Below are positions 35,861-55,763 of a stretch of DNA of 64,000 nt, piece after piece. How positions within the stretch are numbered: position 1 is the stretch's first letter; each line of letters opens with the position of its first letter. The translations under genes were made by a program, and so were the position numbers. The DNA is from Patiria pectinifera (Eukaryota; Echinodermata; Asteroidea; Valvatida; Asterinidae). The notes beneath the pieces were generated by a model, which saw nothing but the letters and a program-made list of their open reading frames with translations, was not told the origin of the DNA and ran no database searches. The stretch spans positions 36,786,900-36,850,899 of the forward strand of contig CM057149.1 of assembly GCA_029964075.1 (NCBI GenBank). Direction: 5' to 3'.

Positions 35861-35861
35861 T

Positions 35862-35940
35862 AAGGGGCCATTCAGAATTTTCAATGTTTTAAAATTTCGA
35901 CTTTTTTTCCAAATTATTTTGACCCACCCACCCACCCCTA
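35862..35940 (+). repeat. GGGGCCATTCAGAATTTTC repeat, copy 1
   Basis: About 60 bp here match in inverted orientation the segments ending at 39645 and 47656. Followed by CCCACCCACCCA. Probably one end of a dispersed element. Confidence 0.6.
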
Positions 35941-35963
35941 ATTTCGATTAATAAAAAACTGAA

Positions 35964-36022
35964 CATGTACATGTACATGCACTTGCATGTACATGTACTT
36001 GAACACCATGTACATGTGTGTC
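35964..36022. repeat. ACATGT-rich run
   Basis: Overlapping TACATGTACATG words. Short runs of the same kind recur at 42136 and 54129. Confidence 0.7.
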
Positions 36023-36358
36023 TAGTTCAGTGACGGCGTGAAGTTGTCGGTCTTCCTCTTTTGCACTGGTGACCTTCAGTTTTCTTGTGTCTTGCTAGCT
36101 GATATGCTGTTGGAAATGACAGCTGTTGCAGTTTTGGAAGCCACAAAGATGACCGTGGTTTTGTCGTTTTCTGGATGAGGTGGATGACATGTGACATACG
36201 AGGTTGTGCCTGTCATGTGAGATAGCTGAGAAAAACATTCGCTCGTATCCCCCACAGGCTACGGTCCTCGTAGTCGTGGAGTCCAGTGGTTGAATAGTCC
36301 TTTTTTTTTTATAGCGAATGGATACACGTAGGCCTACATGACGTACATGTACAGTACA

Positions 36359-36532
36359 CAGTGGCGTAGCCACGGGGGGCGTGGGGGGGCGACAGCGACA
36401 GCATGAAACCTTGTCGCCCCCCAGTCGCCCCCTGAGATTTTGAGTTTCTAAAAAAATTATCATTGATCTACATGACGCCCCCCCATGAAATGTTCCAGCG
36501 CCCCCCTTGAACAATTCCTGGCTACGCCACTG
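36359..36532. mobile_element. hAT-like MITE, CAGTGGCGTAGCCA family, copy 1
   Basis: Ends CAGTGGCGTAGCCA and TGGCTACGCCACTG. The body contains GAAACCTTGTCGCCCC and TGATCTACATGACGCCC. Left flank ACAGTACA (36351-36358) is not repeated at its own right flank but is found right of copy 2. Confidence 0.82.
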
Positions 36533-36539
36533 GCTCCGG

Positions 36540-37385
36540 TTGACCATGCACACCATGGCTCGAACTATAGTGTGATCCGGTACACTCGCTGGCCCCGTCC
36601 AGCTGTTGCTTCCCCGTCACTGTAGCGGTCCGCTCCCGCTTCAGTCCGGCCGTCTCTGCGAAGCGAAAGCTCGTACCGTGCCCACTCGGTTCAGCTAGAA
36701 TCTTTGGCATACTTGGTTCCCCCAGTTAGTGTTGTGAGATTCCGACACCGGTGTTGAAACCAAGGAAAAGCCTGACGTTGGAGGAATCCCCACGCAGTTA
36801 AATAAACCAGTAAAGTCACTGTGAGAAAGCTCTGTTTCCCGCCAAATTCGTTATCATAGACAATAATGTTGATTCTAATATAAATTTAATGAACTAATAG
36901 GGAATGCAACAATAATTTCAGGAATGAATTGCAGGGCAGCTCCGTCGCACAGCCTTTAACGTTTCACCACTTGAAACTTAGAACTGATAGAAACATGGAT
37001 TACAAGATACGAGAACTGTTCGATTGCCTCATTGATGTTCTCCGAAGTCTTCGTGTTAAAATTAGAAAAAGTTTTAACTATGGAAGGTTATGAATCTTTT
37101 CTTTCAAAACTGAGGGAGGAATTATTGCAGTCATATTTATTTTATCGTCAATGTAAAATTGTGTCTTATTTCATTTTGTTCCCGGGTATTTTCTTGTTGT
37201 TTCTTTAGTGTGTGTATTTAATGTGAGTGTAGACCTATGTATGTCAACTAGGTTGTTTGTTTTTATGGTTTGCATTTTTCTCTCTGGGGAATGGGATTGC
37301 TTTTGTTTCTCGGTTTTGTTTTGTTTTGTTTGTAATAATCTTTTTAGCCCGTTTGTCATTCATTCCCGTTATTGAGTCTGGTTGT
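36540..37385. other. Spacer left of the tandem duplication
   Basis: 36540-36720 is GC-rich with open minus-strand frames but no domain I recognise. The rest, including a GTTT-rich stretch at 37255-37385, is unassigned. Confidence 0.45.
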
Positions 37386-37912
37386 TTGTTTTGTTTGTTG
37401 GGGTGTTTGTTTGTTTGTTTGTTGGGTTGTAAGAGTATTTATTTATTAGTTCGTATTTATTTGTTAGATCTGGAAGGCTCATGTCACGGAATGTCCCATT
37501 AAATTGTTTAGAAATTATGTTGAAAATAACATCTTCATGGATTCCCAGCACAACTCCTCACAATAAGCCAGTGTTAACAATATTTCTCGTTGTGGGTCTG
37601 AACATGAAAATTGTCGGTTTGTGTATTATGAATATGATCAAGTGAAATTATTTACGCACTATTTTGCCCATTTCCCTCAAAATTGCATTTTGCAATATTG
37701 TACATCTTTATCAATTTGCTATAATATGTGATACCTCACCAACAAGTATCTTTTAACGAAATTCAATCAGAATATTTATCAATTTTTTTTAATTGTTTTA
37801 GTTGTTGTGTAACTTGTTGGTGTCCCTGCCACACTGTACGATGGTGTAGCCGTGCGTTATGCACGTGGATTACTTTCGTTTTGACGGAGACGGATTACTT
37901 TCGTTTTGACGG

Positions 37913-38601
37913 AGCGCCACTGCAAGTATATATGTTGCGGATTATTTAATTCGTTATTACGGATTATTAATTCGTTATTACGGATTACTAATTCGTTATT
38001 ACGGATTATTAATTCGTTATTACGGATTATTTAATTCGTTATTACGGATTACTAATTCGTTATAACGGATTATTTAATTCGTTATTACGGATTACTAATT
38101 CGTTATAACGGATTATTTAATTCGTTATAACGGATTATTTAATTCGTTATTACGGATTATTAATTCGTTATTACGGATTATTAATTCGTTATTACGGATT
38201 ATTTAATTCGTTATTACGGATTATGAATTCGTTATTACGAATTACTCATACGTTCTGAGTCATTACTCGGCAAGTATGGCACAGGAGTGCAAACGTTGTA
38301 TGCAAAGATACACAGGCCCCTGGTCACGTGCTCTTCACGTGTGAGAACATCAGACCTAATTCGTAATAACGAATTAATAATCCGTAATAACGAATTAATA
38401 ATCCGTAATAACGAATTAGTAATCCGTAATAACGAATTAGTAATCCGTAATAACGAATTAATAATCCGTAATAACGAATTAAATAATCCGTAATAACGAA
38501 TTAAATAATCCGTAATAACGAATTAGTAATCCGTAATAACGAATTAATAATCCGTAATAACGAATTACATAATCTGTAACATATATACTTGCAGTGGCGC
38601 T
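37913..38601. mobile_element. Fold-back element with tandem-array arms, copy 1
   Basis: Outer inverted repeats AGCGCCACTGCAAGTATATA and TATATACTTGCAGTGGCGCT. Inside these, each arm is a tandem array of 17-19-bp units such as CGGATTATTAATTCGTTATT (about 16 units left, about 12 inverted units right). A unique spacer of about 110 bp holds two CACGTG words. No coding frame. GCGC directly flanks both CACTGC ends and may be a 4-bp target duplication. Confidence 0.85.
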
Positions 38602-39235
38602 AATGGGCTTTCGTAGAATAGAGTCTGGTGACTGTACAAAGAAATTTCTTTGAATAAAAGTCGAATCGTTCATTCATGTGTACTTGTTATGCAAAGCAGG
38701 GGGCAGTGGTTCAAGGATATCTATGTCGAATTGCAGAAAGTGTGCAAGAACGCGACTTGAATGCTTTTATGTGTTCGCAATACAACGACGCTGTTTAGTT
38801 ATTTCACTGTGTGACCCAGTGAGAAATTTTGGAATCATAATGGCGTCAGCGATACTTGCCATGGGGAACTCTTGCGTACGACTTTCTGTGCTTTGGTACT
38901 GTTGTTTCCAGGACAATTGTTTGTACGGTAACCCGACGTACCCAGATTTTTAAAGACGAAATTGCCGACCTCAAACTTGTTAGTGCCATATTTGGCAACT
39001 ATATGTGCGTTATTAGTTTAATTAAACATATGAACAGGTTAATTAAACATAGTACCATTGAAGGTAAACAGTAAACATAACAGCATAGAAGACCGACAGA
39101 CGAACATAAAATGTTACAAAATAAACATATTTGTCTGGATAATTTGTTAGGGCGTTACCGGCAAGTTAACACAAACTTGGTGTCAAATAGATGACTTTTC
39201 ATACAAGTTTACATAAACTTTAACTGTATGACCTG

Positions 39236-39422
39236 CAGTGGCGTAGCCACGGGGCGTGGGGCGACAGCCCCCTGAAACCTTGTCGCCCCAGTCGCCTCCC
39301 CCACTGAGATTTTGAGTTTCTAAAAAAATTATTAGTGATCTACATGACGCCCCCCCATGAAATGTTCCAGCCCCCCGGGCGCCCCCCCCCCCCACACTGA
39401 AAAATTCCTGGCTACGCCACTG
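39236..39422. mobile_element. hAT-like MITE, CAGTGGCGTAGCCA family, copy 2
   Basis: Same ends and body as copy 1, with a longer C-run. Its right flank is ACAGTACA (39423-39430), identical to the left flank of copy 1. Confidence 0.82.
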
Positions 39423-39569
39423 ACAGTACATACAGGGGACGAAGTTGGAAAAGAAACACGCATCGCGATATCGGAACGCTTGTGCGTAGTTCAGGCAAGT
39501 CAAAAGATCTATCTTTCTTTGTTTTTTCATCTTTTTTTCCATGGAAAGTGAATTTCGATTTTCAATTAT

Positions 39570-39645
39570 TTAGCTTGACCCACCCACCCACAATTTGGAA
39601 AAAAGATCGAAATTGTAAAACATTGAAAATTCTGAATGGCCCCTA
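39570..39645 (-). repeat. GGGGCCATTCAGAATTTTC repeat, copy 2 (inverted)
   Basis: Reverse complement of the 35862 copy, next to CCCACCCACCCA. Its duplicate in unit 2 ends at 47656. Confidence 0.6.
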
Positions 39646-40483
39646 ACGTGAGACCTTACTTTTCCATTGAAACGGTTTCCGACTTAAATGATATTTATAC
39701 ATCGCACTTTCCGTGGCATCCTTTACCATTTTTCAGTGAAGACAAGTTTACAATTACTCGGCAAAACTGAAAAATTATCCCCTAAACTGTCGCCTGTTTT
39801 GAATTTGTGACCCAATACTTTCGTACTACACGACACGGAAAAACAAAACAAATGCATCAAATACTCTCTGTTTTTTTTGCGCTAAGGTTTGCAAAAGTGA
39901 CTTTGATTGCCTAAAATTCCTGTCCACGTGGAAAGAAAAATTTATCAAAGTATTTCGAGCATGATGTTGACCGATACTTCAGTGGGTCAAACTGCGACTG
40001 CAAACATCCATGTTTGCTGATTATCAGTATTTCATATTTTGAGTGCGCATGCGCGCAAACTAAATGAGCGGCTGAAACATACGTGGGACGCGCTGACAAT
40101 AGACGTAGCCGTAGCTCTGGAAGCCCATTTCGGACACAGCCTTATATTACTGGATTAGGCACATACAGTGACCTATCGCGGTAGAATCGAGTTGGAATCA
40201 CGTCAATGCAGCTTGTGAAATATTGTCCAGTTACATGATATACAAATGGACGGGGAAAGCGCAAAATCTGAGACAAACAAAATTTAGTGTACAAAAACTC
40301 CATAGGGTTGTCTATTAAGGGGCGTGGCTAACTCGCAAACGGCGATAGGTCTATAGACCTTATACTTAGTGGGTGTATCAGAGGCTGTTCTTTGTTATTT
40401 AATTTTGTCAACAATGACTGCACAAAAGGTTTACTCATGCTTATGTACGCCATACAAAACCATTGCCCTCTGTCTACGCCCTG

Positions 40484-42007
40484 AAGGGAAGATACAACAT
40501 TTGCAGACATCAAAAATTGAAATGATCAAATTATCACAAAATACTGGATTGTTAAGGAATGACAGTCTAAAGCATCCTATAAAATCATGGCTCCAGGTGT
40601 GCTGACATTTTCCAGAAAAACTTAATTTTTCCAACGAAGGTCGGCTGACCAGAAAAAACTGGCTTTTTTTTCAAAAACTGCTCCAAATTTTTCAAATTTA
40701 GTTCATTGTGCGCATTTTCTGTGCAATTGATTACACACATGTGAAGGGGTACAAGCCTGCTATAGACTGATTCTCTGACTTAACAATTCCCCAAAGTCTA
40801 TAAATTGCTCCGTTTCATCTGTCAAGTGGGGTAAGGGATCTTCAATGTAGTTCCCATGGAAAATTTTCCCATGGGACCCCATGGAAATTGCATGGTGAAT
40901 TGGACACCATGTGGCATGAATTTTTTTTCCCATGGGAGTTTTCCCATTGGCTTTTTTTCCATGGGAAATTTTATATGGGATTTTTTCCCATGTATGATTT
41001 CCTGTCATTTGTCAAAAGATTCCAAATTGCTCCTATGGTATTTTTCAATAACAACTTTTTAAAATACATTTTAACCCTGCGTGTTTTGTGCTATTTACCG
41101 AATACGTAAAGCTCATCGTGGAACTCCGATGGGGGTTGTTCCACGTATTATTAGTGGCTTATGCACTTTTTGACAAATATCCACATTATTGCTCCCATAC
41201 CGGACCACTTGTCAAGTTGTACCATATTATCTCAGTGTACCCAATTTGTTTTCTCATAAATGTTTCAAACCAAAATAACAAATGAATCATTATTATCCAA
41301 ATATTATTGAATGACACATTTTCCACATAAAAAAATACTGTATGCTTCAAGTTGACTTTGAAGCAATTCTCACAATTCTCATCCCCATGGTGTTCCCATG
41401 ATGACATAAAATCCCCTTGGTGTCACCATGGTGTCCATAAAATCCCCATGGTGTTCCCATGGTGTTCATAAAATCCCTATGGTGTTCCCATGGTGTCTAT
41501 AAAATCCCCATGGTGTTCCCATGGTGTTCATAAAATCCCCATGGTGTTCCCATAATGTCCATAAAATCCCCATGGTGTTCCCATGGAGCTCATAAAATCC
41601 CCATGGTGTTCCCATTTTGTCCATTCAATCTCCATGGTGTTCCCATGGAGCTCATAAAATCCCCATGGTGTTCCCATGGAGCTCATAAAATCCCCATGGT
41701 GTTCCCATGTTGTCCATGCAATCTCCATGGTGTTCCCATGGGTTTCCCATGATGAACATAAAATCTCCCATGGTGATCATTTGAACTCACATGGTGTTCT
41801 TGATGACCCCAAGGGTTTCCCATGGGGTCCCATGGGAATCCCATGGGATGCTCAAGGGACATTTCTGTTAGGGCATGATTGGTTTTCTTGGTTTTTCCAG
41901 CATATACAAGCCCCAAACGTGAAACACGTCAGTTTAATAATATTTTAAATCCTCCAAACCATTTATTCCTGAAAAATTGCAGCAAAAGCAAATGTTGTAC
42001 ATTCCCT
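40484..42007. mobile_element. TTAA element, AGGGAA family, expanded copy in unit 1
   Basis: Left end GAAGGGAAGATACAACATTT, right end AAATGTTGTACATTCCCT before TTAA at 42008-42011. The core matches 6695-7209 but is enlarged to about 1.5 kb by CCATGG-rich minisatellites. Confidence 0.75.
41388..41850. repeat. CCATGGTGTTCC minisatellite, unit 1
   Basis: Imperfect units of about 30 bp: CCATGGTGTTCCCATGG then a variable TGTTCATAAAATCC. Both strands are open over short stretches because of the repeat. A smaller CCATGG cluster lies at 40854-40990. Confidence 0.88.
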
Positions 42008-42262
42008 TTAATGCATAAGGTCTATTTTCGTACAGTGCCCTGAAGCAGAGTCTAGTCTGATCGGCCCCTCCCTCCCCGCACATTATCGATCACCAACTTC
42101 TTGGATTGACTAGGCCTACCTGTCGCAACTTAAATACATGTACATGTATTACCCAAAAGCAGATGTCCACTTTTGAACCTCCATACTTTTCGGCCACCTG
42201 AGTAAAATCTGCTTTTCAGGTAGCAGAAAAGCAGAAAAATGCATTGTCACAAACCGTTAGTA

Positions 42263-42310
42263 TTGTGGCGACCCTGACCCGGCGCTATAAAAGTTCCTGG
42301 CCTTGGCAGC
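42263..42310 (+). promoter_or_regulatory. TATA-box-like motif in unit 1
   Basis: CGCTATAAAAG sits in a GC-rich context about 290 bp before the 15-bp minisatellite. The same motif recurs at 50289 in unit 2. Promoter function is an inference only. Confidence 0.3.
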
Positions 42311-42575
42311 GAGCGGTCTAGCAGGCCAAGAGAGCAGATCCGTTTTGGGGAAATCTACCGCCAGGCAATGGGCACAATCACATAAGGGGGAATACAATCA
42401 GTTTAAATGACACAGAAACATGCGAGCACTCAAGTCTAATGAATTGGAGGCGTAAATAAATTACCAATGAATGTAACTTCAATCACGAATTCAACTTCGC
42501 GTATCAATACAATGCAATAACTATTACATTACATAAGAAGAATTCATAAAACCCATTTAACATGTGTCTCCTTCA

Positions 42576-43138
42576 CCAGGTGCCCCTGCCCCAGGTGCCC
42601 CTGCCCCAGGTGCCCCTGCCCCAGGTGCCCCTGCCCCAGGTGCCCCTGCCCCAGGTGCCCCTGCCCCAGGTGCCCCTGCCCCAGGTGCCCCTGCCCCAGG
42701 TGCCCCTGCCCCAGGTGCCCCTGCACCAGGTGCCCCTGCACCAGGTGCCCCTGCACCAGGTGCCCCTGCACCAGGTGCCCCTGCACCAGGTGCCCCTGCA
42801 CCAGGTGCCCCTGCACCAGGTGCCCCTGCACCAGGTGCCCCTGCACCAGGTGCCCTGCACCAGGTGCCCCTGCACCAGGTGCCCCTGCACCAGGTGCCCC
42901 TGCACCAGGTGCCCCTGCACCAGGTGCCCCTGCACCAGGTGCCCCTGCACCAGGTGCCCCTGCACCAGGTGCCCCTGCACCAGGTGCCCCTGCACCAGGT
43001 GCCCCTGCACCAGGTGCCCCTGCACCAGGTGCCCCTGCACCAGGTGCCCCTGCACCAGGTGCCCCTGCACCAGGTGCCCCTGCACCAGGTGCCCCTGCAC
43101 CAGGTGCCCCTGCACCAGGTGCCCCTGCACCAGGTGCC
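42576..43138 (+). repeat. 15-bp proline-coding minisatellite, unit 1 (about 37 copies)
   Basis: Unit GCCCCTGCACCAGGT, with GCCCCTGCCCCAGGT variants clustered at the left. All plus frames and two minus frames are open (PGAPA, LHQVP or CTRCP repeats), as expected for a stop-free 15-mer. One unit near 42850 is a base short. A pyrimidine tract and CAG precede it, so an exon is possible but unproven. Confidence 0.93.
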
Positions 43139-43198
43139 TGCCCCTACATCAGGTGCAACCACTTTAGCAGGTGTCCCTGAACTTTCGGAGATTGCTAC

Positions 43199-45272
43199 TG
43201 TAGCGGGATCCTACTGGGCTCTTGTCCGCCAAATCCGGCCAAACGCAAGAAAAGGGGACAGACAGACGGGATTTCTAACTCTGAAGGAAGATCTCATTTA
43301 TTTCGCCATGCGGAGTCTGCGGGCAACTTGCCGCACCGCTACCAGAACTGCAACTGATCAATTCCCAGCATAGACATACACACAATCTGAACAAATGTAT
43401 ACAAATGTAGCAACTTTACCCAACTCTGGAATCCAGCCAAGTTCTTCCCGCGCAATTGAACAAAAGAACCCCACTTAGGCAACCTATTTGTAGAGCCTAT
43501 TTCCGGAGCGCGCGCTAGCCAGACCCAAATCCAGGTCAGGTGCGCGCCGCCGGAGCCCCTCCGCCGGAGCACTAGTGCTAGAAAGCAATAACAAAAGTGT
43601 GCACAGACTGTCCGTTACACTACCCCCTCATTAAATTGGGTCTATTCTCCTGAATAGGGGCACATATACAACACATTTTACATGAACTTTGTTTTTTTCT
43701 TTAACCCAACATTGGGTGTCCTCAAAGGATGTGGAGCAACGTTGATCTGGTCCCCAAAATGGTTACTCAGATCAAACGTTAATCCAGCAATCCATGATGA
43801 CAACCTCTTCAACAGGGAAAACATTTTTGAAACAACATGAGAAATCAAACACTTTAGGCCAAAAAAAAAAAGTCTCCGATTTCTGGTATGCGCGCGCGTC
43901 GCCGTAGCCATGCGCGTCGGCAAAATGAAAAGTTTTTTTTTTCAATGAAAAATGATGTCTCAAAACCGCCAAACTCACTGGTTTGACTGGAATCCTGCTA
44001 CTGCACAATTTTAACGTGTTTTTAGATGGGGTTATGATCGAGAATAAGCTTTATGTGGCCTCTCTGGACTCCCATATATTTGCACTAAGTTTAGTCGGGC
44101 ACCATTTGCAGTCATCAGCCGACATTTGAAGCAAAAAAATCAGGTAAAAAAAAAAAAGCCGCGTCGCCGCACCACTTTTTGGCTAAGGTCCATACCAGAA
44201 ACCGGAGACTTATTTTTTTTGGCCTTACTTTCTTTATCAATGGGTGTCCTCAATGGAAGTTGATCAGCGTTGATTCTAGTCCCCAGACTGGTGCACAGAA
44301 TCAAACAGTGATACAACAAACCGTGACGATTACCTTACAACAATTTCAACACATTCTTTTACATTTTTTTTCTTGTTCACTTTACTTGGAAACTGTCCTT
44401 TATGTCCTCACTATTTCACAAAACAATGTCCACCCAAGAGAGAACTTCTCTCCAGTCTCTGTCTGTGTTGCACTTCGCAAGCTTTAGTGTCTTCAGCCAA
44501 GTACACAGGTCACGTCGCTGTACTCCTTCCACCTGGTCGTTGACTTCCCAACCTTGCTTTGGTCCCGTTGTCTTCCGTGGTGTCTGTCCACGCACTGTTG
44601 TCTTCTCCGGCAGCCTTGTCTTCTGTGGTGCACCCCGCACCGGCGGATTCCCCGTCTTTTTCGGCGGCCTCGTCTTCTGTGGTGCACCCTGCACCGGCGG
44701 ATTCCCAGCCTTTGATGCTCCCTGCATCAACGGGTATCCTGTCTTCTGTGGTACTCCCTGTACCTTCGGCCTCGTCTTCTTTGATGCGTCCTGCATCGCC
44801 AGATCCGCAGTCTGTTGGCTTACCGTTCTTGTCCCTGTCACGTGCACCTGCGGTCTGAAAGTCAATGTCGTTGCTTGCTCCAGCGGGGCTGCTTTCGCCG
44901 GGGGATAGTGCCGCTCCGGCTCGGTTGCCGTCACCTGAACATGAAGGTCAGTGTCTTGTGGTCGATTGTCCGTGGTCTGAGTTGCTGTCCCGGCAGTACG
45001 GCGGTCGATGAGTTCAGCGTGCTCTGGCTGATTGGCATGCACCAGCGGAGCCGTCCACAACGGTGGATCAGTGTGCATCGATGGGGATGTCCGCAACGAT
45101 GGAGCTATCGATGTGCAGCTTAAGTTCTCCGCAGCAGTTGGATCAGGACTGGAAAAGTCAGTGCATCCACGAACCTCGATCCGATGGACAGCCGCCATGC
45201 TCGCCAGTATCACGGGACGGGGCTCCACGTCAACAGCAGGGCTATCATCGCTTGCAGCGGCCTCCCTACTCG
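43199..45272 (-). mobile_element. LTR retrotransposon, partial copy in duplication unit 1
   Basis: 3' LTR at 43199-43619 plus the adjoining internal region. The copy ends at the segmental-duplication boundary, so it arose by duplication of the 50995-53878 insertion or its ancestor and not by a second integration. Confidence 0.88.
43855..44227. mobile_element. TAAGGCC-A-run MITE nested in the LTR element, unit 1
   Basis: Ends TAGGCCAAAAAAAAAAAG and TTTTTTTTGGCCTTA. Inner inverted blocks TCTGGTATGCGCG and CATACCAGA. It lies inside the internal region of the LTR element; its copy is at 51651-52023. Confidence 0.75.
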
Positions 45273-45799
45273 TTGTTTTGTTTGTTGGGGTGTTTGTTTG
45301 TTTGTTTGTTGGGTTGTAAGAGTATTTATTTATTAGTTCGTATTTATTTGTTAGATCTGGAAGGCTCATGTTACGGAATGTCCCATTAAATTGTTTAGAA
45401 ATTATGTTGAAAATAACATCTTCATGGATTCCCAGCACAACTCCTCACAATAAGCCAGTGTTAACAATATTTCTCGTTGTGGGTCTGAACATGAAAATTG
45501 TCGGTTTGTGTATTATGAATATGATCAAGTGAAATTATTTACGCACTATTTTGCCCATTTCCCTCAAAATTGCATTTTGCAATATTGTACATCTTTATCA
45601 ATTTGCTATAATATGTGATACCTCACCAACAAGTATCTTTTAACGAAATTCAATCAGAATATTTATCAATTTTTTTTAATTGTTTTAGTTGTTGTGTAAC
45701 TTGTTGGTGTCCCTGCCACACTGTACGATGGTGTAGCCGTGCGTTATGCACGTGGATTACTTTCGTTTTGACGGAGACGGATTACTTTCGTTTTGACGG

Positions 45800-46617
45800 A
45801 GCGCCACTGCAAGTATATATGTTGCGGATTATTTAATTCGTTATTACGGATTATTAATTCGTTATTACGGATTACTAATTCGTTATTACGGATTATTAAT
45901 TCGTTATTACGGATTATTTAATTCGTTATTACGGATTACTAATTCGTTATAACGGATTATTTAATTCGTTATTACGGATTATTAATTCGTTATTACGGAT
46001 TATTAATTCGTTATTACGGATTACTAATTCGTTATAACGGATTATTAATTCGTTATTACGGATTATTTAATTCGTTATTACGGATTACTAATTCGTTATA
46101 ACGGATTATTTAATTCGTTATAACGGATTATTTAATTCGTTATTACGGATTATTAATTCGTTATTACGGATTATTAATTCGTTATTACGGATTATTTAAT
46201 TCGTTATTACGGATTATTAATTCGTTATTACGAATTACTCATACGTTCTGAGTCATTACTCGGCAAGTATGGCACAGGAGTGCAAACGTTGTATGCAAAG
46301 ATAGCGCCGCCTAGCGGCGCTATATACACAGGCCCCTGGTCACGTGTTCTTCACGTGTGAGAACATCAGACCTAATTCGTAATAACGAATTAATAATCCG
46401 TAATAACGAATTAATAATCCGTAATAACGAATTAGTAATCCGTAATAACGAATTAGTAATCCGTAATAACGAATTAATAATCCGTAATAACGAATTAAAT
46501 AATCCGTAATAACGAATTAAATAATCCGTAATAACGAATTAGTAATCCGTAATAACGAATTAATAATCCGTAATAACGAATTACATAATCTGTAACATAT
46601 ATACTTGCAGTGGCGCT
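45800..46617. mobile_element. Fold-back element with tandem-array arms, copy 2
   Basis: Same structure as 37913-38601, with about 22 left-arm units and a spacer carrying an extra 23-bp palindromic segment at about 46304-46326. Confidence 0.85.
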
Positions 46618-47251
46618 AATGGGCTTTCGTAGAATAGAGTCTGGTGACTGTACAAAGAAATTTCTTTGAATAAAAGTCGAATCGTTCATTCATGTGTACT
46701 TGTTATGCAAAGCAGGGGGCAGTGGTTCAAGGATATCTATGTCGAATTGCAGAAAGTGTGCAAGAACGCGACTTGAATGCTTTTATGTGTTCGCAATACA
46801 ACGACGCTGTTTAGTTATTTCACTGTGTGACCCAGTGAGAAATTTTGGAATCATAATGGCGTCAGCGATACTTGCCATGGGGAACTCTTGCGTACGACTT
46901 TCTGTGCTTTGGTACTGTTGTTTCCAGGACAATTGTTTGTACGGTAACCCGACGTACCCAGATTTTTAAAGACGAAATTGCCGACCTCAAACTTGTTAGT
47001 GCCATATTTGGCAACTATATGTGCGTTATTAGTTTAATTAAACATATGAACAGGTTAATTAAACATAGTACCATTGAAGGTAAACAGTAAACATAACAGC
47101 ATAGAAGACCGACAGACGAACATAAAATGTTACAAAATAAACATATTTGTCTGGATAATTTGTTAGGGCGTTACCGGCAAGTTAACACAAACTTGGTGTC
47201 AAATAGATGACTTTTCATACAAGTTTACATAAACTTTAACTGTATGACCTG

Positions 47252-47435
47252 CAGTGGCGTAGCCACGGGCGTGGGGGCGACAGCCCCCTGAAACCTTGTC
47301 GCCACCCCCCCCAGTCGCCTCCCCCACTGAGATTTTGAATTTCTAAAAAATTATTAGTGATCTACATGACGCCCCCATGAAATGTTCCAGCCCCCCGGGC
47401 GCCCCCACACTGAAAAATTCCTGGCTACGCCACTG
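47252..47435. mobile_element. hAT-like MITE, CAGTGGCGTAGCCA family, copy 3
   Basis: Counterpart of copy 2 in duplication unit 2, with the same flanks and a shorter C-run. Confidence 0.82.
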
Positions 47436-48493
47436 ACAGTACATACAGGGGACAAAGTTGGAAAAGAAACACGCATCGCGATATCGGAACCCTCCTCCGT
47501 AGTTCAGGCAACTCAAAAGATCTATCTTTCTTTCTTTTTCTTTTTCTTTCCATGGGAAGTGAATTTCGATTTTCAATTATTTGGTTCGACCCACCCACCC
47601 ACAATTTGGAAAAAAGATCGAAATTGTAAAACATTGAAAATTCTGAATGGCCCCTAACGTGAGACCTTACTTTTCCATTGAAACGGTTTCCGACTTAAAT
47701 GATATTTATACATCGCACTTTCCGTGGCATCCTTTACCATTTTTCAGTGAAGACAAGTTTACAATTACTCGGCAAAACTGAAAAATTATCCCCTAAACTG
47801 TCGCCTGTTTTGAATTTGTGACCCAATACTTTCGTACTACACGACACGGAAAAACAAAACAAATGCATCAAATACTCTCTGTTTTTTTTGCGCTAAGGTT
47901 TGCAAAAGTGACTTTGATTGCCTAAAATTCCTGTCCACGTGGAAAGAAAAATTTATCAAAGTATTTCGAGCATGATGTTGACCGATACTTCAGTGGGTCA
48001 AACTGCGACTGCAAACATCCATGTTTGCTGATTATCAGTATTTCATATTTTGAGTGCGCATGCGCGCAAACTAAATGAGCGGCTGAAACATACGTGGGAC
48101 GCGCTGACAATAGACGTAGCCGTAGCTCTGGAAGCCCATTTCGGACACAGCCTTATATTACTGGATTAGGCACATACAGTGACCTATCGCGGTAGAATCG
48201 AGTTGGAATCACGTCAATGCAGCTTGTGAAATATTGTCCAGTTACATGATATACAAATGGACGGGGAAAGCGCAAAATCTGAGACAAACAAAATTTAGTG
48301 TACAAAAACTCCATAGGGTTGTCTATTAAGGGGCGTGGCTAACTCGCAAACGGCGATAGGTCTATAGACCTTATACTTAGTGGTTGTATCAGAGGCTGTT
48401 CTTTGTTATTTAAATTTGTCAACAATGACTGCACAAAAGGTTTACTCATGCTTATGTACGCCATACAAAACCATTGCCCTCTGTCTACGCCCT

Positions 48494-50012
48494 GAAGGGA
48501 AGATACAACATTTGCAGACATCAAAAATTGAAATGATCAAATTATCACAAAATACTGGATTGTTAAGGAATGACAGTCTAAAGCATCCTATAAAATCGTG
48601 GCTCCAGGTGTGCTGACATTTTCCAGAAAAACTTAATTTTTCCAACGCAGGTCGGCTGACCAGAAAAAAACTGGCTTTTTTTCAAAAACTGCTCCAAATT
48701 TTTCAAATTTAGTTCATGGTGCGCATTTTCTGTGCAATTGATTACACACATGTGAAGGGGTACAAGCCTGCTATAGACTGATTCTCTGACTTAACAATTC
48801 CCCAAAGTCTATAAATTGTTCCGTTTCATCTGGTAAGTGGGGTAAGGGATCTTAAATGTAGTTCCCATGGAAAATTTTCCCATGGGACCCCATGGAAATT
48901 GCATGGTGAATTGGACACCATGTGGCATGAATTTTTTTTCCCATGGGAGTTTTCCCATTGGCTTTTTTTCCATGGGAAATTTTATATGGGTTTTTCCCCC
49001 ATGTATGGTGTCCTATCATTTCTCAAAAGATTCCAAATTGCTCCATGGTATTTTTCAATAACAACTTTCTTAATACATTTTAACCCTGTGTGTTTTGTGC
49101 TGTTCACCGAATATGTAAAGCTCATCGTGGAACTCCGATGGGGGTTGTTCCACGTATTATTAGTGGCTTATGCACTTTATGACAAATGTCCACATTATTG
49201 CTCCCATACCACTTGTCAAGTTGTACCATATTATCTCAGTGCACCCAATTTGTTTTCTCATAAATGTTTCAAACCAAAATAACAAATGAATCATTATTAT
49301 CCAAAGTTCTTTGAATGACACATTTTCCACATAAAAAAAATACTGTATGCTTCAAGTTGACTTTGAAGCAATTCTCACAATTCTCATCCCCATGGTGTTC
49401 CCATGATGACATAAAATCCCCTTGGTGTCACCATGGTGTCCATAAAATCCCCATGGTTTTCCCATGGTGTTCATAAAATCCCCATGGTGTTCCCATGGTG
49501 TCTATAAAATCCCCATGGTGTTCCCATGGTGTTCATAAATTCCCCATGGTGTTCCCATGATGTCCATAAAATACCCATGGTGTTCCCATGGAGCTCATAA
49601 AATCCCCATGGGTGTTCCCATTTTGTCCATTCAATCTCCATGGTGTTCCCATGGAGCTCATAAAATCCATGGTGTTCCCATGGAGCTCATAAAATCCCCA
49701 TGGTGTTCCCATGTTGTCCATGCAATCTCCATGGTGTTCCCATGGGTTTCCCATGATGAACATAAAATCTCCCATGGTGATCATTTTAACTTACATGGCG
49801 TTCTTGATGACCCCAAGGGTTTCCCATGGGGTCCCATGGGAATCCCATGGGATGCTCAAGGGACATTTCTGTTAGGGCATGATTGGTTTTCTTGGTTTTT
49901 CCAGCATTATACAAGCCCAAAACGTGAAACACGTCAGTTTAATAATATTTTAAATCCTCCAAACAATTTATTCCTGAAAAATTGCAGCAAAAGTAAATGT
50001 TGTACATTCCCT
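48494..50012. mobile_element. TTAA element, AGGGAA family, expanded copy in unit 2
   Basis: Counterpart of 40484-42007; right TTAA at 50013-50016. Small indels lie in the CCATGG array. Confidence 0.75.
49387..49860. repeat. CCATGGTGTTCC minisatellite, unit 2
   Basis: Counterpart of 41388-41850 with several single-base and unit differences. Confidence 0.88.
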
Positions 50013-50580
50013 TTAATGCATAAGGTCTATTTTCGTACAGTGCCCTGAAGCAGAGTCTAGTCTGATCGGCCCCTCCCTCCCCGCACATTATCGATCACCA
50101 ACTTCTTGGATTGACTAGGCCTACCTGTCGCAACTTAAATACATGTACATGTATTACCCAAAAGCAGATGTCCACTTTTGAACCTCCATACTTTTCGGCC
50201 ACCTGAGTAAAATCTGCTTTTCAGGTAGCAGAAAAGCAGAAAAATGCATTGTCACAAACCGTTAGTATTGTGGCGACCCTGACCCGGCGCTATAAAAGTT
50301 CCTGGCCTTGGCAGCGAGCGGTCTAGCAGGCCAAGAGAGCAGATCCGTTTTGGGGAAATCTACCGCCAGGCAATGGGCACAATCACATAAGGGGGAATAC
50401 AATCAGTTTAAATGACACAGAAACATGCGAGCACTCAAGTCTAATGAATTGGAGGCGTAAATAAATTACCAATGAATGTAACTTCAATCACGAATTCAAC
50501 TTCGCGTATCAATACAATGCAATAACTATTACATTACATAAGAAGAATTCATAAAACCCATTTAACATGTGTCTCCTTCA

Positions 50581-50934
50581 CCAGGTGCCCCTGCCCCAGG
50601 TGCCCCTGCCCCAGGTGCCCCTGCCCCAGGTGCCCCTGCCCCAGGTGCCCCTGCCCCAGGTGCCCCTGCACCAGGTGCCCCTGCACCAGGTGCCCCTGCA
50701 CCAGGTGCCCCTGCACCAGGTGCCCCTGCACCAGGTGCCCCTGCACCAGGTGCCCCTGCACCAGGTGCCCCTGCACCAGGTGCCCCTGCACCAGGTGCCC
50801 CTGCACCAGGTGCCCCTGCACCAGGTGCCCCTGCACCAGGTGCCCCTGCACCAGGTGCCCCTGCACCAGGTGCCCCTGCACCAGGTGCCCCTGCACCAGG
50901 TGCCCCTGCACCAGGTGCCCCTGCACCAGGTGCC
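50581..50934 (+). repeat. 15-bp proline-coding minisatellite, unit 2 (about 23 copies)
   Basis: Same unit; 14 copies fewer than unit 1, and it lacks the one-base-short unit. The flanks on both sides are identical. Confidence 0.93.
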
Positions 50935-51650
50935 TGCCCCTACATCAGGTGCAACCACTTTAGCAGGTGTCCCTGAACTTTCGGAGATTGCTACTGTAGC
51001 GGGATCCTACTGGGCTCTTGTCCGCCAAATCCGGCCAAACGCAAGAAAAGGGGACAGACAGACGGGATTTCTAACTCTGAAGGAAGATCTCATTTATTTC
51101 GCCATGCGGAGTCTGCGGGCAACTTGCCGCACCGCTACCAGAACTGCAACTGATCAATTCCCAGCATAGACATACACACAATCTGAACAAATGTATACAA
51201 ATGTAGCAACTTTACCCAACTCTGGAATCCAGCCAAGTTCTTCCCGCGCAATTGAACAAAAGAACCCCACTTAGGCAACCTATTTGTAGAGCCTATTTCC
51301 GGAGCGCGCGCTAGCCAGACCCAAATCCAGGTCAGGTGCGCGCCGCCGGAGCCCCTCCGCCGGAGCACTAGTGCTAGAAAGCAATAACAAAAGTGTGCAC
51401 AGACTGTCCGTTACACTACCCCCTCATTAAATTGGGTCTATTCTCCTGAATAGGGGCACATATACAACACATTTTACATGAACTTTGTTTTTTTCTTTAA
51501 CCCAACATTGGGTGTCCTCAAAGGATGTGGAGCAACGTTGATCTGGTCCCCAAAATGGTTACTCAGATCAAACGTTAATCCAGCAATCCATGATGACAAC
51601 CTCTTCAACAGGGAAAACATTTTTGAAACAACATGAGAAATCAAACACTT

Positions 51651-52023
51651 TAGGCCAAAAAAAAAAAGTCTCCGATTTCTGGTATGCGCGCGCGTCGCCG
51701 TAGCCATGCGCGTCGGCAAAATGAAAAGTTTTTTTTTCAATGAAAAATGATGTCTCAAAACCGCCAAACTCACTGGTTTGACTGGAATCCTGCTACTGCA
51801 CAATTTTAACGTGTTTTTAGATGGGGTTATGATCGAGAATAAGCTTTATGTGGCCTCTCTGGACTCCCATATATTTGCACTAAGTTTAGTCGGGCACCAT
51901 TTGCAGTCATCAGCCGACATTTGAAGCAAAAAAATCAGGTAAAAAAAAAAAAGCCGCGTCGCCGCACCACTTTTTGGCTAAGGTCCATACCAGAAACCGG
52001 AGACTTATTTTTTTTGGCCTTAC
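51651..52023. mobile_element. TAAGGCC-A-run MITE nested in the LTR element, unit 2
   Basis: Counterpart of 43855-44227, so it was inserted before the segmental duplication. Confidence 0.75.
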
Positions 52024-52210
52024 TTTCTTTATCAATGGGTGTCCTCAATGGAAGTTGATCAGCGTTGATTCTAGTCCCCAGACTGGTGCACAGAATCAAA
52101 CAGTGATACAACAAACCGTGACGATTACCTTACAACAATTTCAACACATTCTTTTACATTTTTTTTCTTGTTCACTTTACTTGGAAACTGTCCTTTATGT
52201 CCTCACTATT

Positions 52211-53239
52211 TCACAAAACAATGTCCACCCAAGAGAGAACTTCTCTCCAGTCTCTGTCTGTGTTGCACTTCGCAAGCTTTAGTGTCTTCAGCCAAGTACA
52301 CAGGTCACGTCGCTGTACTCCTTCCACCTGGTCGTTGACTTCCCAACCTTGCTTTGGTCCCGTTGTCTTCCGTGGTGTCTGTCCACGCACTGTTGTCTTC
52401 TCCGGCAGCCTTGTCTTCTGTGGTGCACCCCGCACCGGCGGATTCCCCGTCTTTTTCGGCGGCCTCGTCTTCTGTGGTGCACCCTGCACCGGCGGATTCC
52501 CAGCCTTTGATGCTCCCTGCATCAACGGGTATCCTGTCTTCTGTGGTACTCCCTGTACCTTCGGCCTCGTCTTCTTTGATGCGTCCTGCATCGCCAGATC
52601 CGCAGTCTGTTGGCTTACCGTTCTTGTCCCTGTCACGTGCACCTGCGGTCTGAAAGTCAATGTCGTTGCTTGCTCCAGCGGGGCTGCTTTCGCCGGGGGA
52701 TAGTGCCGCTCCGGCTCGGTTGCCGTCACCTGAACATGAAGGTCAGTGTCTTGTGGTCGATTGTCCGTGGTCTGAGTTGCTGTCCCGGCAGTACGGCGGT
52801 CGATGAGTTCAGCGTGCTCTGGCTGATTGGCATGCACCAGCGGAGCCGTCCACAACGGTGGATCAGTGTGCATCGATGGGGATGTCCGCAACGATGGAGC
52901 TATCGATGTGCAGCTTAAGTTCTCCGCAGCAGTTGGATCAGGACTGGAAAAGTCAGTGCATCCACGAACCTCGATCCGATGGACAGCCGCCATGCTCGCC
53001 AGTATCACGGGACGGGGCTCCACGTCAACAGCAGGGCTATCATCGCTTGCAGCGGCCTCCCTACTCGTGGTCTCCCTATTCACGCGACAACCCAGCCTAG
53101 CATCAACTTCTGCCTCCGGACCGCTGAACAGGCTTGCTCGTCGTTCATCTTCATCCTGATCCGCACTGGTAGAATCATCGGAGCTGTACATCGCTTCCAA
53201 TTCGGCGATCATTTTATTGAAGCATTTCCTTTGGTACAC
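52211..53239 (-). mobile_element. Open frame of the LTR element (gag position)
   Basis: About 340 residues in the place where gag is expected. Charged N-terminal part and a low-complexity part with repeated QGAPQKT-type words. I see no zinc knuckle or protease motif, so the gag label is positional only. The frame at 44416-45438 corresponds to it in unit 1. Confidence 0.5.
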
Positions 53240-53882
53240 ACCAACCGCTGATCCCGTGGCCTATGGATTACGTCCACGTTTGTCCGAGGAATAGGCTGAT
53301 CCAGAAATCTGCCGCTCCAAGGAATCCTCCAGCTTCCGAATGTCAATCATGACATCGTAAATGGCGTCCACGATTTCAACTGCGGTTGTGTACTTCGTCA
53401 TTTTCAGTCGGTCCAAAATCCCGTCAATATCCCACCAGCTGCCACCATTTGTAGCGGGATCCTACTGGGCTCTTGTCCGCCAAATCCGGCCAAACGCAAG
53501 AAAAGGGGACAGACAGACGGGATTTCTAACTCTGAAGGAAGATGTCATTTATTTCGCCAAGCGGAGTCTGCGGGCAACTTGCCGCACCGCTACCAGAACT
53601 GCAACTGATCAATTCCCAGCATAGACATACACACAATCTGAACAAATGTATACAAATGTAGCAACTTTACCCAACTCTGGAATCCAGCCAAGTTCTTCCC
53701 GCGCAATTGAACAAAAGAACCCCACTTAGGCAACCTATTTGTAGAGCCTATTTCCGGAGCGCGCGCTAGCCAGACCCAAATCCAGGTCAGGTGCGCGCCG
53801 CCGGAGCCCCTCCGACCGCCGGAGCACTAGTGCTAGAAAGCAATAACAAAAGTGTGCACAGACTAGCTGTCCGTTACACTAC

Positions 53883-54357
53883 CAATCATGCAATGCAATT
53901 TCTTAGATCTGAGCGGATAACAGAATCGGTAAACTTCTGAGTGTCATCTTAATTCTTTACTAAACTCTTGGTTCCCTGAACACCTTTGCATACACTTGGT
54001 TCTCGAAACATTTCCACTTATAAATGTCTTGCGCTAACCACAACTTTTCTGTGCTTATGCTCAGGCACGCACAGTGTAACTACAGTCCTTTGAATTCCAC
54101 TGTGCTTGTGGGCCCTATTCAATAATGCATGTATGTACATGTACATGTACAAACCACGTAGAAGGTCAAATCTGTTTACACTGCACTGAATATCGAAACT
54201 GTACATTGCGTTACAGTATTCATGTTTATCATGAACATAACTACATACGCACTGGGGTCAAAGTGCCACATTATCAATAGTTGCACAGCTAAAATCGGTG
54301 CCTGGTAAGCCAGGGTTCGCTGAGTCCTAGGCCTCAGAGACAGATCTGTCTGCCAAC
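53883..54357 (+). promoter_or_regulatory. 5' flank of the cytochrome P450 gene
   Basis: Sequence between the LTR element and the P450 start codon. No TATA box at a convincing distance. An ACATGT run lies at 54129-54150. The LTR insertion ends 476 bp before the ATG. Confidence 0.4.
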
Positions 54358-54641
54358 ATGGCGATCACGGACAGAGTCATCTCCGTTTTGACAAACACCA
54401 ACTACATTTCTACCGTGCCTTTCCTCCTTTGTGCGGTCGTGACTTTCTTGGTCACGGCGGTGGTATGGCGGCGACTGACGTACTGGAGCAAATACACCTG
54501 GCCGCCCGGGCCTCGGGGCTGGCCCTTGGTCGGTAATTCACTGCTGATCGCTCCACACTCTGGACAGACTAATGCCAATATCACCAGGATTGGAAAGCAG
54601 TACCATCCAGATATGTTCACGCTGACTTTGTACTTTGGAAA
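54358..54641 (+). CDS. Microsomal cytochrome P450 (CYP2-like), first exon
   Basis: 94 codons plus two bases, ending GGAAA|GTAAGT, a strong donor. Residues about 19-39 form a hydrophobic membrane anchor, followed by basic and aromatic residues and the proline-rich hinge WPPGPRGWPLVGN (residues 48-60), which is diagnostic of microsomal P450s. It ends YHPDMFTLTLYFGK, matching the YGPVF-type segment that closes exon 1 in CYP2-clan genes. The haem-binding Cys loop and later exons are not found before 64000, so the gene continues to the right or is broken by repeats. Heme monooxygenase of the endoplasmic reticulum; substrate unknown. Confidence 0.88.
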
Positions 54642-55763
54642 GTAAGTATTATTACATGTACTTTTCTTACTTCTCTGTGAACTACATTTACCTCGGCATA
54701 ATGTAGGGGAAAAAATGTTTCAACTTTCAACCTGACGCCACTTCAGCAGTTGTGTACAAAGTTTATGGAGAGTCAAGGCAATTTTTAAAGTATTTCCTAA
54801 CAAAATTGGAAATGTTTCTCAGTCCCAGATTCAAGGTAAAACAGAAATTTTCAGACCAGTCTCAGGGTTTGTGCACAGGGTGACAAGTGATGGCCAGATA
54901 TTGGGAATCTTCCCCCCCCCCCAAAAAAAATAGAACAAACCAAACCGGTCTGCATTTTTATATGACCACGGCATGGCATTATTTTGATCAATTTTTAGTC
55001 AAATGTTTTTGGTAAATTTGCGGGGACAAACAGACAGACGACAGACAGACAGACAGACAGCACGACAGACCGACGGATCACCAAGTGTCACACAGAAGCT
55101 CTCGCCATAGCTTAAAAAGAGAATTTTATTGCAACCCATTGTGTTTGTCAGTGGTAAGTGAGGATGATCGCAATAATGGGCCCATTTTCTTGATTCAGTT
55201 TAAGAGATCCACGATTCTCCTAAAGCCAGATTTAATCATCACCAATATAAAAAACAACAACACCAGTTCTCTGTGGAGACGAATGAACGGCTTTAATCCA
55301 AATTTAGAACTGCTCTGTTGTGTTGTCTTCGAAATGTTTGATAGATTATCCAAGGTGTGGAGTCCATGAAACGTTGGTAATGTGCTGCACAGCGTAGAAC
55401 AAATATTCGTGTTATTCTCAAATTTTACCAAAATGATCAAAGTGCACAAATTAATGTTTGCTTGCGATAAATTTAGGCCTCACTATCATTCCATAACGGT
55501 TTCTGATACTGGACTTCAAGTACATGTAAACATGTATTATTTGTGGCGGAAAGTGTTTGTTTGTGACGTCATACCATAGCACTAACGCTTAATCACTTGT
55601 ATGCAGTGACTGGGCGGAGCTTACGAGCTCCGTGGGCTGCTTGATTAATGGCCAATAACTCCCATAGGTTTAATAGGGTTAGTACTAGGCTTTCGCCCAG
55701 GCCATCGTGGCTTAGAGCGGCGGAGTTGCGATGTGCTAAAAACATGCATGAAATGGTTAGTTA
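54642..55763 (+). other. P450 intron 1, left part
   Basis: 54720-54920 resembles 23651-24100 (TGATGGCCAGATATTGGGAA block). GACA microsatellite at 55030-55072. No second P450 exon recognised. Confidence 0.5.

Follow-up and report, generated by a model that had tools for sequence, protein, structure and literature searches.

How did two nearly identical 7.8-kb units come to lie head to tail in the genome of Patiria pectinifera, and do they record an event in the animal or in its assembly? We addressed this in a window of 64,000 nucleotides of contig CM057149.1 (assembly GCA_029964075.1, positions 36,786,900 to 36,850,899 of the forward strand; C21:36786900-36850899 in our numbering), with searches across the genome (613.5 Mb, 1020 contigs). 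Coordinates without a contig prefix count from the first base of the window. The locus is a real feature of the assembly, and the duplication is probably real in the animal; as a kind of event, it is an ordinary recent tandem duplication, of an already-known class.

Structure and boundaries of the tandem repeat

Self-BLAST and global alignment place copy 1 at 37386–45272 (7887 bp) and copy 2 at 45273–53067 (7795 bp), both on the forward strand and collinear throughout. The self-BLAST pairs comprise 37386–38244/45273–46130 (98.1% identity), 37935–42928/45929–50934 (97.4%) and 42780–45273/50575–53068 (99.7%). Judged from the alignment, chance is ruled out as the source of a 7.8-kb collinear match. 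Segmental duplications are defined by a length of at least 1 kb and an identity of at least 90%; the unit reaches 7.8 kb, with BLAST segments at 97.4–99.7%. The single T at 45273 can be read as the last base of copy 1 or as the first of copy 2, and position 53068 likewise matches 45273. Both copies, with these exact coordinates and about 1 bp common to them at the junction, had been proposed in an initial annotation of the window, and our alignments bear this out.

The seam (45272/45273) joins the interior of a long terminal repeat (LTR) element to the interior of an element that we take to be Harbinger-like (PIF/Harbinger) and that has dispersed copies elsewhere in the genome. The latter occupies 35861–39646, with the left breakpoint (37386) inside it; its body (35864–39643) carries GGGGCCATTCAGAATTTTCAATG terminal inverted repeats and is flanked by TAA at 35861–35863 and 39644–39646. 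The LTR element lies on the reverse strand and appears twice: truncated at the seam in copy 1 (43199–45273; LTR 43199–43619, 421 bp; CTAC at 43195–43198) and with both LTRs across the right edge of copy 2 (50995–53878; LTRs 50995–51415, 421 bp, and 53450–53878, 429 bp), where CTAC stands on its outer sides (50991–50994 and 53879–53882). These LTR positions confirm that, as annotated, the breakpoint lies inside the element.

Windows of 201 bp around the seam and around either outer edge were compared with 16 loci fetched from the genome, keeping local scores above 120. The left-edge window was matched across the breakpoint by six of the 16 loci, three of them (L021–L023) over all 201 bases and three (L024, L030 and L031) in part, and the right-edge window by three (L032–L034), again over all 201 bases. 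Seven loci matched the seam window, each from one side and by at most 4 bases past the joint; none of the 16 spans it by more than 4 bases. As relatives run through both outer edges and stop at the seam, the outer edges represent the old arrangement and novelty is confined to the seam. Native outer edges with one novel inner joint are what characterizes a tandem duplication. The two sides of this joint share no homology. The best local score between the breakpoints was 18, compared with a mean of 17.8 and a maximum of 32 in 200 shuffles, and the left breakpoint sits in a TTGT-rich tract. The absence of homology argues against homologous unequal exchange and for end joining or template switching, and the single shared base falls within the zero to few base pairs that characterize joints made by end joining or a microhomology template switch. 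The window contains no N; one of the 16 fetched stretches contains 500.

The truncation of the LTR element at the seam is the main reason to place the duplication after the LTR insertion, in agreement with the relative age given in the initial annotation. The counts lend modest support: the copy-1 LTR is identical to its copy-2 counterpart and the block 41990–45272 has no substitution in 2714 columns, against two in 421 aligned columns between the full element's own two LTRs. By our own arithmetic, two independent substitutions would both land in the LTR pair with a probability of about 0.02.

Uneven divergence between the copies

Are the copies equally old along their length? Masking of the 21-bp and 15-bp arrays left 6811 columns, which carry 66 substitutions and 51 merged events, distributed very unevenly. 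The block 37386–39253 has two substitutions in 1351 columns. It is followed by patch 1 (39254–39587; copy 2, 47270–47598), with 19 substitutions in 341 columns, then by 785 columns free of any difference (39588–40372). Patch 2 (40373–41989; copy 2, 48384–49994) has 45 substitutions in 1620 columns, and the remainder (41990–45272) has none in 2714 columns and one 1-bp indel. The clean blocks, about 71% of the comparable columns, thus total 2/4850 substitutions (0.04%), and the two patches combined 64/1961 (3.3%), some 80 times the divergence of the rest. The block edges were set after the differences had been seen; a permutation test that uses all events, independently of the blocks, gave a variance-to-mean ratio of 4.28 for events per 400 columns, against a maximum of 2.79 in 20,000 permutations, and the longest run without events was 1375 columns (p 0.00055).

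One duplication aging evenly does not produce such a mosaic; exchange between alleles can, and so can an assembly that switches haplotype. The single young age that had been assigned to the unit is therefore not supported. An overall identity of 97–99% may mask very clean and very diverged blocks, and since the figure hides the mosaic, no single age can be safely read from it.

Direction of change in the patches

Patch 1 lies in the Harbinger-like element and was polarized with ten other copies of that element. Of the 14 substitutions between 39441 and 39576, 13 have the copy-1 base in at least nine of the ten element copies and the copy-2 base in no copy; the exception, 39531, lies beside a T run and favors the copy-2 state. 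On this comparison, 13 of the 14 substitutions from 39441 onward are derived in copy 2. Upstream, position 39316 has the copy-1 state in all seven element copies with a letter there, and columns 39254–39257, in a G-rich run, show mixed states and probably reflect a shifted indel. Eight consecutive copy-2-only changes, omitting 39531, are all to C on the forward strand and fall within 58 bp (39478–39535; copy 2, 47491–47546), followed by further transitions.

A 37-base piece in its copy-2 form matched the genome once, at copy 2 itself, with up to three mismatches allowed, whereas the copy-1 form gave 240 matches (127 + 113, copy 1 included) at the same threshold; reversed controls of either form gave none. 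Being unique, the copy-2 form was not received from another of the listed element copies and constitutes a private cluster, and ectopic conversion from a different Harbinger-like element is not supported as the source of patch 1. The cluster is a mutation cluster, a rare allele or a consensus error. A mutation shower from error-prone repair synthesis on copy 2, perhaps in the duplication event itself and involving a C-inserting translesion polymerase, strikes us as very unlikely.

Patch 2 was polarized with a partly alignable relative on contig C904, about 79–83% alike; a weaker relative on C14 was not used. Judged by the C904 sequence, copy 1 carries the derived state at 40587 and 41914, and copy 2 at 40808, 41903 (a 1-bp indel), 41960 and 41989. 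Position 40843 appears derived in copy 2 when judged by eye, and scripted calls at 40659 and 40663 (copy 1 derived) and 40823 (copy 2 derived) were not counted because they fall in shifted or gapped stretches. The polarized sites of patch 2 are those listed here. Derived changes on both copies are the pattern that two diverging alleles would show. The C904 relative (locus L028) lies on an unplaced contig of exactly 25,000 bp, a round figure that suggests cutting by scaffolding software. When 4.3 kb of that contig served as a query for an allelic partner, none of the 40 candidates scored was near-identical, and the matches were repeats of 92% or less.

Tandem arrays and palindrome

The length difference between the copies had been attributed to three tandem arrays, and we find it in two. 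The 15-bp array (42570–43138; copy 2, 50575–50934) has 38 units in copy 1 and 24 in copy 2, making copy 1 longer by 209 bp. After the first variant unit, copy 1 reads P9 A9 a A18 and copy 2 reads P5 A18 (P and A denote the two types of unit, a one of 14 bp); removing one contiguous 14-unit block from copy 1 gives copy 2. One deletion of 14 units (209 bp) suffices to explain this and the reverse requires at least two gains, which points to a loss in copy 2. The first of two 21-bp arrays is 106 bp longer in copy 2, and the second measures 223 bp in both copies. Copy 2 holds an extra contiguous five-unit block whose unit order is absent from copy 1, and one more unit differs by substitution; from the unit order, a single loss from copy 1 would be the simplest account. 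The 31-bp CCATGG-rich array (41381–41741; copy 2, 49386–49745) has 11.7 units in both copies. With one block deletion per array enough to explain the differences, two loss events yield no turnover rate, and the locus is poorly suited to the measurement of array turnover for which it had been recommended.

The 21-bp arrays form the oppositely oriented arms (37938–38244 and 38357–38579; copy 2, 45825–46237 and 46373–46595) of an inverted-repeat element nested in the Harbinger-like element at 37892–38615 (copy 2, 45779–46631), with terminal inverted repeats near 37913 and 38601. This insertion is missing from L021–L023, the three closest Harbinger-like copies. Its loop in copy 2 contains a 23-bp palindrome (46301–46323) that is absent from copy 1 (at 38308). 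The palindrome-less form matched the genome once, at copy 1, and the right border of the palindrome-bearing form matched 58 times, with up to two mismatches allowed in each case. Because the palindrome-less form occurs nowhere but in copy 1 and the border of the other recurs, the loss took place in copy 1. The extra copy-2 stretch has ATA at each end, as expected for slippage across a hairpin. A loop query with the palindrome returned 41 listed matches including the window's own, and 33 of the 40 others run from the first to the last or last-but-one base; the query contains the palindrome and the list omits copy 1, so it is biased for polarity and the direct counts above were used instead.

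Origin of the duplication

We consider it likely that a real head-to-tail duplication of a transposon-rich segment arose by non-homologous joining and was followed by small array losses and by allelic exchange, or assembler switching, in the patches. The Harbinger-like element, the nested inverted-repeat insertion and the LTR element would all have been in place beforehand. From within the LTR element, a DNA end would then have been joined, or a nascent strand that had stalled there would have switched template, to a point about 7.8 kb upstream inside the Harbinger-like element, making the joint with a single T of microhomology and without homologous unequal exchange; end joining and template switching are both candidates for this step. 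Later changes would comprise the divergence of about 0.04% in the clean parts, the loss of 14 units from the 15-bp array of copy 2, and the loss from copy 1 of five units of the 21-bp array and of the 23-bp hairpin. The patches, at about 3.3%, most likely derive from a different allele, which may have entered by conversion or crossover in the ancestry or by a change of haplotype in the assembler. Several points weigh against this account. The seam is known from one assembly, and errors in the consensus or a switch between haplotypes could underlie the patches. The 13 of 14 substitutions at 39441–39576 derived in copy 2 only are not predicted by ordinary allelic divergence, and the 785 clean columns between the patches mean that a single conversion tract does not account for both.

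The assembler may instead have set two alleles of a single-copy locus end to end, one haplotype per copy. The caution in the initial annotation that wrongly joined haplotypes could look alike is a fair one, as such a join yields the same layout, with outer edges that are native and a single chimeric, homology-free seam, and the patch divergence of about 3.3% resembles the heterozygosity of very heterozygous animals, given as 3.2–4.2% for amphioxus (PMC12862219). False duplications are described as common and sometimes adjacent, and as marked by gaps, half depth and single-copy k-mers (PMC9516828). We would expect such a join to show divergence of allelic size throughout; the copies differ by 3.3% in two patches and by 0.04% elsewhere. 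However, the seam carries no N between the copies, and 2714 columns without a substitution (41990–45272) are unexpected if the alleles differ by about 3%. Among the best 40 scored candidates there was no third full copy of the unit's middle, and the right flank (1101 bases) gave gene-family and repeat matches, the longest other match being 87% over about 616 bases, and no haplotig. The absent N and the long substitution-free blocks make a false join less likely, and we regard it as a rather unlikely source of the repeat.

The very uneven divergence and the derived changes on both copies in patch 2 would also follow if the duplication were older, its outer parts lately homogenized by gene conversion between the copies and its middle patches left at their true age. 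Such a history is improbable: both copies hold a young LTR element (its own LTRs two substitutions apart), truncated in copy 1 exactly at the seam, so an old duplication needs that element to have been present beforehand or copied between the units up to the seam, and the clean 785-column island demands an extra conversion tract. Non-allelic homologous recombination between repeats at both ends would account for two breakpoints within dispersed repeats, but these repeats belong to different families without similarity at the breakpoints. With a breakpoint score of 18 against a shuffled mean of 17.8 and 1 bp of microhomology, we rejected it, and its probability is close to negligible.

A real duplication by non-homologous joining is of small significance at this locus alone, since tandem duplications of recent, non-homologous origin are a common finding. 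Should the patches be allelic, the locus would allow duplication, conversion and haplotype switching to be told apart in one place with phased reads.

Other features of the window

The long reverse-strand frames of the LTR element and one array frame (three proteins) gave no domain above the curated cut-off; the array frame matched Extensin_1 at E 2.2e-9, with 38 bits, below the cut-off of 105. A short dispersed repeat lies at 39660–40085. In several Harbinger-like copies elsewhere, a pair of similar pieces is separated by about 1 kb: C14:46474315 and 46475231, C19:31513775 and 31515041, C1:28401888 and 28402802, and C16:11626089 and 11627378.

In the right flank, frame 54331–54645 resembles the start of a cytochrome P450 in its motif; phmmer returned P450 matches only at E 0.03–1, with no Pfam match. 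Six flank frames had no Pfam match at E 0.01. The DNA of 54331–54645 has further matches of 87–96%, five of them within about 180 kb on C21 and a sixth on C901. Given these matches, a tandem gene family that expanded recently may adjoin the duplication. Other imperfect direct repeats in the window are 58039–58722/58687–59350 (89%) and 58644–58951/59958–60272 (93%).

Comparison with known systems

The element at the left breakpoint shares with PIF/Harbinger transposons, a name that we presume to apply, its 3-bp TAA flanks and GGGGCC... terminal inverted repeats; it is known here by its ends, and its role in this locus is that of breakpoint site only. In layout, with adjacent near-identical copies, the locus resembles the false heterotype duplications described for assemblies; unlike them, it has a seam without an assembly gap and is nearly difference-free over most of the unit (PMC9516828). 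Homology-free tandem segmental duplications in yeast, formed by microhomology/microsatellite-induced replication (MMIR; PMC2518615) or found in CUP1 arrays (PMC4232551), provide a further parallel: direct copies with little or no junction homology, and breakpoints in transposons or low-complexity sequence, here on the left a TTGT-rich tract. The MMIR junctions described there have 5–10 bp of microhomology or low-complexity stretches, in contrast to the 1 bp at this seam (PMC2518615), which makes end joining as likely here.

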